This document shows, piece after piece, positions 45,106 through 49,851 of a DNA stretch of 64,000 nucleotides. This stretch comes from Halanaeroarchaeum sp. HSR-CO (GTDB lineage: Archaea > Halobacteriota > Halobacteria > Halobacteriales > Halobacteriaceae). The DNA is taken from contig NZ_CP087724.1 of NCBI RefSeq assembly GCF_024972755.1, positions 310,001-374,000 of the forward strand, in the 5' to 3' direction. Numbering within the stretch: the stretch's first letter is position 1; each line of letters starts with the position of its first letter. A program made the position numbers and the translations under genes. The notes beneath the pieces are model-generated. The model was given only the letters and a program-made list of their open reading frames with translations. It ran no database searches and was not told the origin of the DNA.

Positions 45106-46767
45106 ATGTCGAGCCTGCTCTATCTCGCACACGTCGGACTGTTCGTCGCCGCCGCCTTGGCGAGTTTCGCGAGCGTGCCTCGCGCACGACAGATCGAACA
45201 CGAGGACACTCGTATCGGGATGACCGGATTACTCGTTTCGACCGGGCTGTGGGCCGCCGCAACCGCCGGATACTTCCTCGTACCGAATCCGAGAATTGCC
45301 GAGTGGATCTACGTCTTCGGGCTGGTGGGGGCATTCACCGCCGTGGGAGCGTGGGTCTACTTTGCCGCGGCCTACACTGCCAGGCCCCCGCGACGCGCAC
45401 CGTTTCGCTGGGTCGCGGTTGCGGTCTATCTCGCCGTCGTCGGTTCGAAACTCACCAATCCAATCCACAATCTGTATTTCACCGCAGCGCCAGCCTCGAC
45501 GCCCTTCCAGCATCTCGCCGTTCAGTACGGTCCGCTTTACTGGGTGGTCCTGGGACTATCGTACGTACTGGCGGCGATCGGCTTTTTCATGCTTCTCGAG
45601 ATGTTCCACCACGCCGGCACCAACACTCGGCCGCTGGCGATCCTCGTAGCCCTGACCGCCCTCCCCGTCTCCATGGACCTGATCGCGATCGTCCACCCGT
45701 CACTGCTGGCGGTCACCTACGAGCCGATCGGCGTCGCAGCCTTCGCGATCGGGGTCCTCTTTTTCTACTTCGAGCGTTTCCAGGCGGTACAGCTCGCTGG
45801 CGACATCGACGATCCCGTGCTCTTCGTCGATCTCGACGGCTGCGTTCGCGATTACAATCAGGCCGCCAGGGACCTCTTCCCGGCGGTGGCGTCTGGCGTT
45901 GGCGACCCGCTCGAGACCGCCGCCCCGGCACTCGCAGCCGCCCTCGATGATGGTACTGACACCGTAACCCTCGATCGAAACAGTCAAACTGAGTACTATC
46001 ACGTCTCGACGATGCCGTTCGGGACGGACGAGACCGTGACCAGTCGGCTCGTCGTCCTGAACGACGTCACCGACACTCGACGTCACCAGGCCGAACTCGA
46101 GCGTATCAGCGAGCAACTCGCCGTCTTGAATCGCGTGGTTCGCCACGACATCCGCAACGACATGAACGTGATCCTCGGGTGGTCTGAACAGGTGAGAGAC
46201 CACGTGGATGCGGACGGCCGGGACGCGCTCGAACGCATTCGCGAGACCGCGAGACACGTCGTTCAGATCACCACCGTCGCACGCGATTTCGTCGAGGCAC
46301 TGACGAACGCCGACGAGCCAGACCTTCGTCCGGTCGATCTGCAGCAGTCACTGACCGTCGAAATCGAGTCTCTCCGCGAGTCGTATCCCGAAGTCGAGGT
46401 CGACGTAACGCTGCCGGACCGGTCCGTGTCAGTCCAGGCCAACGAGATGCTCTCTTCGGTGTTTCAGAACGTCCTTCACAACGCCGTTCAGCACAACGAT
46501 CACGATGAGCCCACGATCACCGTGTCGGCGAGCGTCGACGGGGAGACGGCGACCGTTCGTATTGCCGACGACGGTCCGGGAATCCCCGACGGTCGCAAAA
46601 CGGAGGTATTCGGCAAAGGAGAGATGGGTCTCGACAGTTCGGGGACCGGGATCGGGCTCTATCTCGTCGTTCAGTTGGTCGAGCAGTACGGTGGCGAGGT
46701 GTGGATAGCGGATAACGAACCGCGTGGTGCGGTGTTCGTCATCAGATTGCCGCTGGCGGACGACTGA
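45106..46767 (+). CDS. 7TM-sensor histidine kinase
   Basis: 553 residues. Seven hydrophobic helices fill about 1-225 (histidine-kinase N-terminal 7TM region), then a PAS-like domain (about 230-330; DPVLFVDLDGCVRDYNQAAR), a dimerisation/phospho domain with H347 in VVRHDIRNDMNVILGW, and the ATPase with [20 protein letters not shown] and SGTGIGLYLV. This layout is common in haloarchaea. The signal is unknown. It follows the LOV kinase on the same strand (132-nt gap), and the hairpin array starts 90 nt after its stop. Confidence 0.93.
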   Translation: MSSLLYLAHVGLFVAAALASFASVPRARQIEHEDTRIGMTGLLVSTGLWAAATAGYFLVPNPRIAEWIYVFGLVGAFTAVGAWVYFAAAYTARPPRRAPFRWVAVAVYLAVVGSKLTNPIHNLYFTAAPASTPFQHLAVQYGPLYWVVLGLSYVLAAIGFFMLLEMFHHAGTNTRPLAILVALTALPVSMDLIAIVHPSLLAVTYEPIGVAAFAIGVLFFYFERFQAVQLAGDIDDPVLFVDLDGCVRDYNQAARDLFPAVASGVGDPLETAAPALAAALDDGTDTVTLDRNSQTEYYHVSTMPFGTDETVTSRLVVLNDVTDTRRHQAELERISEQLAVLNRVVRHDIRNDMNVILGWSEQVRDHVDADGRDALERIRETARHVVQITTVARDFVEALTNADEPDLRPVDLQQSLTVEIESLRESYPEVEVDVTLPDRSVSVQANEMLSSVFQNVLHNAVQHNDHDEPTITVSASVDGETATVRIADDGPGIPDGRKTEVFGKGEMGLDSSGTGIGLYLVVQLVEQYGGEVWIADNEPRGAVFVIRLPLADD

Positions 46768-46855: not shown

Positions 46856-47214
46856 GCGACCGCACCGCGGTCGCGGGACGTTTTTCGTCCAGGTTTTTTC
46901 CGAGTCGCGAGGGACCGGCGGTCCCTCGGGATGTGCGAACGGCGGGGTCGTCGCCGTGAGCAGAACGCGGTTCGCGAAGCGCACCCGAGGTGGTTCGAAA
47001 GCCGCTCCGCGGCTTTCGTCATGTCGTCGGAAACCGTGTGTTTCCGACTGCACGCGGAAAATCTTCGATTTTCCGCACTGCCGAGAGGCGCAAAGCGCCT
47101 CTCGTAACAAGTAAAAAAGTGGAGGAGAAGCGGGCCGGGAGGGACTTGAACCGAGCCGAGACGGTCGCTCACCCCGTTCGCGCTGCGTCTCGTCGGGCTC
47201 AAGTCCTTGGCCGC
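46856..47214. repeat. Hairpin array, unit 1
   Basis: Non-coding. Perfect stem-loops in order: 46856-46874 (8-bp stem, loop ACC); 46876-46890 (5 bp, loop T5); 46908-46928 (9 bp, GGC); 46996-47018 (10 bp, TCC); 47026-47048 (9 bp, CGTGT); 47054-47076 (10 bp, TTC); 47082-47104 (10 bp, AAA). Then comes a 25-nt copy of the tRNA-Lys 3' end (47128-47152), which opens an 84-nt imperfect inverted repeat (47131-47214). Readings through it are not genes. Function unknown. Confidence 0.9.
47128..47152 (-). repeat. 25-nt copy of the tRNA-Lys 3' end (distal copy)
   Basis: Identical to 47402-47426 and 47517-47541. It contains the last 21 nt of tRNA-Lys (acceptor 3' strand, T-arm), the discriminator and the following 3 nt. 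Beyond it the sequence diverges from the tRNA, so this is not a tRNA gene. It looks like an attachment-site remnant. Confidence 0.85.
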
Positions 47215-47224
47215 TTCGCCTTTT

Positions 47225-47236
47225 GGGGGGGGGGGG
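47225..47236. repeat. Run of 12 G between hairpin units 1 and 2
   Basis: An uninterrupted G12 run preceded by TTTT separates the two units. Runs like this are slippage-prone and also a place where assembly length can be wrong. Confidence 0.8.
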
Positions 47237-47245
47237 ATGGACTCA

Positions 47246-47488
47246 CCGCGACCGCACCGCGGTCGCGGGACGTTTTTAGTCCAGGTTTTTGCGACGAGTG
47301 GTTCGCGAAGCGCACCCGAGGTGGTTCGTAAGCCGCAAAGCGGCTTTCGTCATGCCGAGAGGCGCAAAGCGCCTCTCGTAGCAAGTAAAAAAGTGGGAGA
47401 TAAGCGGGCCGGGAGGGACTTGAACCGAGCCGAGACGGTCGCTCACCCCGTTCGCGCTGCGTCTCGTCGGGCTCAAGTCCCTGGCCGC
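47246..47488. repeat. Hairpin array, unit 2
   Basis: A shorter relative of unit 1 in the same orientation. Stem-loops: 47246-47268 (10-bp stem, loop ACC); 47268-47282 (4 bp); 47327-47349 (10 bp with one mismatch, AAA); 47356-47378 (10 bp, AAA), followed by GTAAAAAAGTG, the tRNA 3'-end copy (47402-47426) and its imperfect inverted repeat to 47488. It lacks the 47026-47048 and 47054-47076 hairpins of unit 1 as whole modules, as well as the 46908-46928 one. Confidence 0.9.
47402..47426 (-). repeat. 25-nt copy of the tRNA-Lys 3' end (proximal copy)
   Basis: Identical to 47128-47152 and to the intact tRNA end at 47517-47541. It is 115 nt from the tRNA and 274 nt from the distal copy. All three are in the same orientation, as expected of repeated recombination at one att site. 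Confidence 0.85.
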
Positions 47489-47519
47489 GTCGCTCCTCGC
47501 GGAAGTGCTCGGAGCAAAG

Positions 47520-47593
<74 letters not shown>

Positions 47594-48621: not shown

Positions 48622-49851
48622 TCATAGCGAGACGACCTCACCGCGGGCAGGTGCACCCGCCCCGTACCCCGACTCGCGAAGGGCCGCGGCGAAGCGCTCG
48701 CACTGGTCGCCGTGGTTGACGAGGATCGTCGCCCCAGGATACGATTCGAGCAGTTCCAGCAGACCATCCCTATCGGCGTGAGCGGAGAAGTCGAACTGCT
48801 CGACGCGAGCGCTGACGGGCATCCGTCGCCCATCGATCTCGGCGCTCCCGGTGTCGAGGAGGTCCCTGCCAGGCGTCCCTTCGACCTGGTAGCCCGTCAT
48901 CGCGATCAGGTTGGTCGGGTTTCCAGCGACCGCTGGGACGTAGGTCATCGCCGGCCCGCCGGCGAGCATCCCGGCGGTCGTCACGATGACGGTGTTCTGG
49001 TCGGCGATTCGCCGGCGTTGGCCGTCTCGACCCGTCACGAACCGGGCGTGGCCGCTGGCCCGCCGAAACGCCGCTGGATCCCGGAGGGATTCGGGGGCGT
49101 GTCGCAGCCGCTCCGTCACCCGGATCCCCATGCCGTCGACGTAGCACTCGAGGTCGTTCGCTTCACAGAGGAGCATCATCTCCTGCGTGCGACCGATGGC
49201 GAACGCCGGAACCACCACGGTGCCGCCGCGGTGGATCGTCTCCGAGACCGCGCGGACGAACGACTCCTCGATCGACGCCCGCGACGGACGGGTCACGTCG
49301 GCGTAGGTGCTCTCGACGATGACCGCGTCGGCCGCCGGTCGGTCCCTCGACGGTTCGACGAGACGCTGGGCTTCGGTGTTGAAATCCCCCGTGTAGAACA
49401 GACGGGTGGCACCATCGTCGACCAGGACGTGGGCGCTCCCGGGGATGTGGCCCGCGTCGTACAGCGTGACCTCGTAGCCGGCGGCCTTGAACGGTTCGCC
49501 GTAGGCGTGGGTGACCGAGACCTCGCCGATCGCGCCGATCTCGGCCCGGGTGAAGGGCTGATCGAAGCGGTCGCCCTGGATCGACAACGTGTCCTCCGCG
49601 AGGAGGTAAGTGAGGTCCCGCGTCGCGGCCGTCCAGTGGACCGGCGGTCGACGCGTTCCCTTGAGCAACGCCGGCACCATGCCGGCATGGTCGAGGTGAC
49701 CGTGGGAGACGACGGCGGCGTCGGGGTCGACGTCGGGCGGGTAGGTCGGAGGGTTGCCGCCGCTCATGCCGTAATCCAGGAGCAGCGAATCGTCGACGAG
49801 GATTGCACTGCGCCCGATCTCTCGTGCCCCGCCGAGGAACCGTACCTCCAT
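48622..49851 (-). CDS. Beta-CASP metallo-beta-lactamase ribonuclease (aCPSF-like)
   Basis: 409 residues. The zinc motif SHGHLDHAG is at about 49-57, followed by AGHIPGSAHVL, YTGDFNTEAQ and STYAD; the beta-CASP part has VPAFAIGRTQE, and the C-terminal motifs are FSAHADRDG and ILVNHGD. Such proteins process or degrade RNA (aCPSF2/RNase J relatives). No KH domains, so this is the short type without the N-terminal extension of aCPSF1. Exact specificity is uncertain. Confidence 0.9.
   Translation of the reverse strand: MEVRFLGGAREIGRSAILVDDSLLLDYGMSGGNPPTYPPDVDPDAAVVSHGHLDHAGMVPALLKGTRRPPVHWTAATRDLTYLLAEDTLSIQGDRFDQPFTRAEIGAIGEVSVTHAYGEPFKAAGYEVTLYDAGHIPGSAHVLVDDGATRLFYTGDFNTEAQRLVEPSRDRPAADAVIVESTYADVTRPSRASIEESFVRAVSETIHRGGTVVVPAFAIGRTQEMMLLCEANDLECYVDGMGIRVTERLRHAPESLRDPAAFRRASGHARFVTGRDGQRRRIADQNTVIVTTAGMLAGGPAMTYVPAVAGNPTNLIAMTGYQVEGTPGRDLLDTGSAEIDGRRMPVSARVEQFDFSAHADRDGLLELLESYPGATILVNHGDQCERFAAALRESGYGAGAPARGEVVSL

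Follow-up and report, generated by a model that had tools for sequence, protein, structure and literature searches.

A hairpin array behind tRNA-Lys in Halanaeroarchaeum belongs to a haloarchaea-wide class of tRNA-anchored repeats that copy the neighbouring tRNA

In the window, the whole 64,000-nucleotide stretch of Halanaeroarchaeum sp. HSR-CO DNA that was analysed (NZ_CP087724.1, positions 310,001 to 374,000), a hairpin-rich block at 46856-47519 is flanked by a histidine kinase gene (45106-46767, plus strand) and the gene for tRNA-Lys(UUU) (47519-47593, minus strand; ARAGORN, Rfam RF00005), and alpha/beta hydrolase and beta-CASP nuclease genes adjoin the region. The tRNA-Lys is the sole tRNA of the region, in which no other Rfam family was found (ARAGORN, Rfam). 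The beta-CASP metallo-nuclease gene (aRNase J / aCPSF-like, 48622-49851) is two genes away from the array. An earlier note had described short hairpins in two related units together with two 80-nt imperfect inverted repeats, and these features hold up: there are at least nine hairpins, mostly with 8-10 bp stems and 3-nt loops, the units form a 141-nt direct repeat (96% identity, separation 274 bp) alongside direct repeats of 58 and 46 nt, and the inverted repeats lie at 47404-47482 and 47130-47206. Folding of the 669-nt block on the tRNA strand gives -336 kcal/mol versus -268 +/- 5.8 kcal/mol for 20 dinucleotide-preserving shuffles (z -11.7), compared with a z of -7.1 for the opposite strand. 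Of the two strands from which the note imagined a structured RNA, that of the tRNA is the relevant one.

The point missed by the first reading is that the arms of both 80-nt repeats are the 3′ end of tRNA-Lys. Read on the tRNA (minus) strand, each unit consists of an inverted copy of the T-arm of about 12 nt (INV), a core hairpin of about 45 nt, and a 22-nt tail that repeats the tRNA 3′ end, T-loop to discriminator, in direct orientation. The tails at 47404-47425 and 47130-47151 are exact copies of 47519-47540, the 3′ end of the tRNA gene that serves as anchor and template of the array. INV1 (47469-47482, AGGGACTTGAGCCC), which follows the tRNA sequence in relatives, and INV2 (47197-47206) are the reverse complement of the T-arm over 47471-47480 and 47197-47206 except at two core-proximal positions, one of which places a G opposite T54 of tRNA-Lys. 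The two cores (47426-47470 and 47152-47196) are identical and belong to core type ii (CCGACGAGACGCAGC...GACCGTCTCGGCTCG), a type whose inner stem covaries as described below. Unit 1 is preceded by a spacer hairpin with tandem G.A pairs (47492-47515, GCTCC-GA-GC-ACTTCC-GC-GA-GGAGC), a motif enriched behind tRNAs, and is followed by a T6 tract (CACTTTTTTAC, 47385-47395) that appears terminator-like from the placement of such tracts in arrays; a second T6 tract lies at 47111-47121 within the feature 46856-47121. A 12-G homopolymer (47225-47236; 12 C on the tRNA strand) directly before unit 2 is a possible slippage site and sequencing risk.

The remaining small hairpins of 46856-47519 constitute a separate, dispersed, terminator-like element (element B) that is unrelated to the INV-core-tail units. 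They sit between the two T6 tracts and a motif of the form AAAAACCTGGAC[TG]AAAAACG at 47271-47290 and 46879-46898, and the element comprises several triloop hairpins plus AAAAACCTGGACNAAAAACG. Both copies lie on the minus strand, the first (47246-47378) with hairpins at 47356-47378, 47327-47349 and 47246-47268 and the motif AAAAACCTGGACTAAAAACG at 47271-47290, and the second (46856-47121) with hairpins at 47082-47104, 47054-47076, 47026-47048, 46996-47018, 46905-46931 and 46856-46876. Seven copies are present in the same genome, and among 146 Halobacteriales genomes an exact pattern occurs in 13. Element B lies mostly at gene ends and, by its triloop hairpins, its motif AAAAANCTSSACNAAAAACG and the T5-6 tracts that it has on either strand, resembles a two-way terminator.

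The INV-core-tail layout is not particular to tRNA-Lys. Searching the same genome with the block revealed it behind other tRNAs, including tRNA-Gly(UCC) with about eight tandem copies of about 111 nt downstream, and for 19 of the 43 tRNA genes found in it the 400 nt downstream contain both a tail copy and an INV matching the gene's own T-arm, versus one gene for the upstream side. Downstream occurrences number 18/37 in a congener, 16/35 in a genome of another family and 15/34 in Haloferax prahovense, with none upstream in each, so that over the four genomes 44-49% of tRNA genes carry the layout downstream on the same strand versus 1/149 upstream, with one to eight hairpins per tRNA. A strict arm pattern (GGATTTGAAN{20,50}GGTTCAAATCC) is matched in 213 of 293 Halobacteriales genomes, which represent 75 of 87 genera, and the reversed pattern used as control matches none of the 293. 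A degenerate form searched in 295 genomes of the phylum matches nearly all of the approximately 53 Halobacteriales sampled and only two genomes outside that order. Among the matches listed, in Halorubrum, Halovivax, Haloferax, Natrialba, Halorientalis and others, a tRNA lies upstream on the same strand wherever one is within reach. The tRNA-Lys array belongs to a class of hairpin repeats that is spread across the haloarchaea and anchored to tRNAs. A virus-borne origin was rejected, as none of the 17 contigs recovered by the arm pattern from IMG/VR is a tRNA-linked haloarchaeal copy. Downstream of tRNAs, a second module was seen at five loci in which the tail copy behind a hairpin lacks the T-loop and begins with the 3′ strand of the T-stem, e.g., GCGGGAGTCCCGTCGGGTCCG.

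The cores fall into few types that are common to many tRNAs and families, and different cores follow one another behind a single tRNA. A search for core type i that made no use of the arms returned 30 loci, 27 of them directly behind a same-strand tRNA; of the other three, one has arms at a contig edge and two are chance matches without arms. Genomes from two families share an identical 43-nt core behind tRNA-Arg(CCU), and over three families the presence of an array at a given isoacceptor is more uniform than chance would give (P 0.005). Within 26 genomes of the family, several orthologous tRNA-Lys genes are without an array; in the congener, unit 1 occupies the orthologous tRNA-Lys site.

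Each array copies its own neighbouring tRNA, whose sequence is tracked by the arms. For 133 tail copies, the acceptor part has an identity of 0.84 to its own tRNA versus 0.40 to the other tRNAs of the genome, and 94 of the 133 are at least 0.9 identical to their own tRNA versus 0.8% for other tRNAs. As arms had been chosen as the best complement in the sets first used for G-U counting and type-ii covariation, which biases them, an arms-free set was built, and in it INV pairs with its own T-arm at 225 of 243 positions. The type-ii inner stem shows 60 double-change cells versus a shuffle maximum of 38, although these shuffles ignore relatedness and the counts are not probabilities, and sliding the stem register by one lowers Watson-Crick pairing from 85% to 21-26%. 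Between the congeners, the T-arm of tRNA-Lys differs by one base, a difference repeated in both INV and tail (T-arm/INV GTTCAAGTCC/GGACTTGAG to GTTCAACTCC/GGAGTTGAG), with cores 96% and spacers 66% identical; tRNA-Leu(UAG) changes likewise in INV and tail (GTTCAAATCC/CGATTTGAA to GTTCGAATCC/CGATTCGAA). The T-arm position that differs in tRNA-Lys is G, C, A or T across the 26 genomes of the family, and wherever an array is present its INV matches. The INV mismatch GGATTCTAA is conserved in three genera, and correction is therefore not always fast. Tail copies with one inserted T-loop base (TTCACAATC) recur across tRNAs and species (six loci), and there the INV still matches the tRNA.

Such copies beside tRNAs, with conserved stems and changed bases, were the observation that the earlier note had named as support for a real element, and they are found in abundance. 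Its proposal of REP- or IS200-like mobile modules does not hold in the sense of one dispersed sequence, since each array bears the sequence of its own tRNA and the arms-free core loci lie almost all behind tRNAs: the arrays share with REP/BIME elements and IS200/IS605-type palindromes, known in haloarchaea as the PATEs of Haloquadratum (PMC3119063), the abundance of short intergenic palindromes, but they are not dispersed and take their arms from the adjacent tRNA, and no link to a transposase was found. The note was right that this is not a CRISPR array, as identical direct repeats with unique spacers are absent. An assembly artefact, which it had named as a possible refutation, does not agree with related arrays in most Halobacteriales genera and in the congener, and the neighbouring integrases that it proposed to list are not found near the arrays of this genome in a PF00589 search, the nearest being several kb away.

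The boundaries of the copied segments are sharp. The identity block of the tail starts at G52/G53 and mostly ends at the tRNA 3′ end, exactly so in half of 200 units and within one base in nearly three quarters. The complementarity of INV is restricted to the T-arm, and an INV spanning the whole acceptor was rejected because pairing with the acceptor part hardly exceeds that of shuffled flanks. Structure also favours the coding strand. The motif stem-GA-2bp-loop-2bp-GA-stem occurs in 33 of 149 tRNA-downstream regions, versus 6 for its antisense form and 0.3 in shuffles; predicted core loops are of 3 nt in 140 of 207 cases, mostly C(GNA)G on the coding strand; and fold energy is lower on that strand in 164 of 197. 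DNA hairpins gain exceptional stability from GNA triloops as well as from tandem pairs of the form 5′-PyGAPu-3′, the latter of which are exceptionally stable in RNA too. Tracts of at least five T are depleted inside arrays (9/71) and behind them mostly lie 5-11 nt past the last tail. A T-stretch is the transcription terminator of Haloferax volcanii (PMC7237163). Neither a bulge-helix-bulge splicing motif (after PMC7714728) nor a K-turn was seen in the folds, inspected by eye.

Helices selected as RNA are expected to tolerate one-sided changes via G-U and to avoid C-A. Counted as G-U to C-A, the acceptor stems of these genomes' tRNAs give 52:0, whereas the repeats give 20:10 for the arms, 20:10 for the core hairpins, 32:24 for the spacers and 2:4 for the type-ii stems. 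Such a ratio, about 2:1, is a weak coding-strand preference, and the helices therefore do not seem to evolve like selected RNA helices. An initial excess of 65:6, counted with the biased arms, was dropped as proof of RNA function because it came mostly from two core-adjacent positions and was about 2:1 elsewhere. The counts thus fit DNA-level copying better than selection on an RNA helix alone.

The favoured interpretation, to which we give a probability of roughly 40%, is that the units are kept matched at the DNA level via hairpin-templated strand switching on the coding strand. That strand would be single-stranded during replication or displaced by transcription of the tRNA, and the core would then form a very stable mini-hairpin. 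A 3′ end inside the core could fold back and copy INV, which would regenerate the T-arm. Having thereby acquired the T-arm sequence of the tRNA, the new end could switch to the tRNA as template and copy the acceptor part, with the outcome that arms are repaired towards the tRNA and tandem units are added. Such switching would account for a short INV limited to the T-arm next to a longer tail through the acceptor, for near-perfect stems with little wobble preference, for the C(GNA)G triloops and the coding-strand tandem G.A pairs, and for the tandem expansions. Against it stand the core types common to different tRNAs and families, for which local copying alone is insufficient, and the sharp tail boundary at the tRNA 3′ end, which copying has no reason to respect; the INV mismatch conserved in three genera also counts against it. 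An enzyme recognising the folded strand, or a function in cis, is probably needed besides copying to explain the shared cores.

A function in cis is the substance of the strongest alternative, possible but on balance doubtful, in which the array is a structured 3′ trailer co-transcribed with the tRNA and ending at the T tract. In this model INV would have two alternative partners, the T-arm, by which maturation would be blocked, and the tail copy, by which the tRNA would be released, as in a three-segment attenuator-like switch, and for this reason INV, T-arm and tail would all have to stay matched, as their triple covariation indicates that they do. Of 144 precursors folded without the tail copy, 118 have INV paired to the T-arm of the tRNA with P > 0.5, versus only 35 when the tail copy is included, and an RNA switch is therefore physically plausible. 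The conservation of arrays per isoacceptor, the position of T tracts after the last tail and not inside the array, and the preference of structure for the coding strand, in both its G.A motifs and its fold energies, speak for a transcribed function. The 2:1 ratio of G-U to C-A argues against the trailer model, as does the acceptor part of the tail, which pairing with INV leaves unexplained. The tRNA, moreover, is synthesised first and should fold before INV emerges, and several orthologous tRNAs are without an array. The wider proposition that most haloarchaea run a cis-acting quality or dosage switch per tRNA, with the transcript's own T-arm antisense, a neutralising decoy tail and up to eight modules tuning the maturation of individual tRNAs, is rather unlikely.

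Bacteria have repeats of the same layout. The E. coli tyrT/tyrV repeats (rttR, rtT RNA) are, like the haloarchaeal arrays, tandem units behind a tRNA that each end in a copy of its 3′ end (AATCCTTCCCCCACCACCA), and every repeat also contains an inverted tail copy (GGGGAAGGAT), giving the INV-core-tail layout (behind tyrV, minus strand). Unlike in haloarchaea, the tail starts within the T-loop and includes CCA, and the comparison covers one tRNA in one genome. The bacterial matches listed for the arm pattern lie mostly inside tRNA-Ser(CGA) and are trivial, and among them only Butyricicoccus tRNA-Pro and one unplaced contig look similar. Behind Butyricicoccus tRNA-Pro(CGG), INV-core-tail units including CCA lie downstream (L095 6699-6969, L129 355-484) of a hairpin and T tract resembling an intrinsic terminator, which is repeated together with the unit, and a repeat in this position counts against a trailer.

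Unlikely, too, is a reading close to the recombination target of the earlier note, in which units are cassettes and a site-specific recombinase has the T-loop (GG^TTC) as its insertion point, each insertion bringing in a new tRNA tail and pushing the old one outward, with the single-stranded INV:tail fold as the site, by analogy with integron attC. Arrays of attC sites are likewise folded imperfect palindromes with conserved outer arms, an unpaired spacer, an inner stem and a variable loop, and the covariation of arms and inner stem bears out such a fold here. The identity block from G52/G53 to the tRNA 3′ end has the geometry of tRNA-targeted integration, and the succession of different cores behind one tRNA would fit cassettes; the T stem-loop and 3′ end of tRNAs are known integration target regions (PMC8371274). 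Unlike attC arrays, however, the units are gene-free and tRNA-anchored, their arms vary from tRNA to tRNA, and the PF00589 search of this genome places no tyrosine recombinase (IntI) near any array. Orthologous units with the same core have also changed their arms after speciation, a later change that insertion does not predict. The tRNA-targeted integrative elements and partial tRNAs of haloarchaea (PMC7921747, PMC8371274) resemble the arrays in their direct 3′ tRNA copies downstream of a tRNA with a sharp boundary, but they flank kilobases and an integrase, whereas the arrays consist of units of 90-270 bp, often several, with an inverted copy and a structured core and with no integrase gene or provirus between the tRNA copies. 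That the arrays are provirus-left partial tRNAs with chance hairpins, or an assembly artefact, is very improbable: partial tRNAs do lie directly beside full tRNAs in Hfx. gibbonsii (PMC7921747), but INV is found together with covarying cores across most genera of Halobacteriales, and unit 1 is at the orthologous site in the congener. As a full explanation this is contradicted by the covariation.

In the literature searched, which included a minority of the subscription journals, no paper was found that describes the arrays, their inverted copy or the matching across whole genomes. The arrays provide a frame for the long-unexplained rttR repeats of E. coli, and their role is directly testable, as the genetic model genus Haloferax has them behind many tRNAs. 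Taken together, the data describe a repeat that takes its sequence, at each gene and throughout an archaeal order, from the neighbouring tRNA and covaries with it. Such a repeat would be either a control element for tRNAs of a new type, or hairpin-templated copying recorded very clearly in nature.
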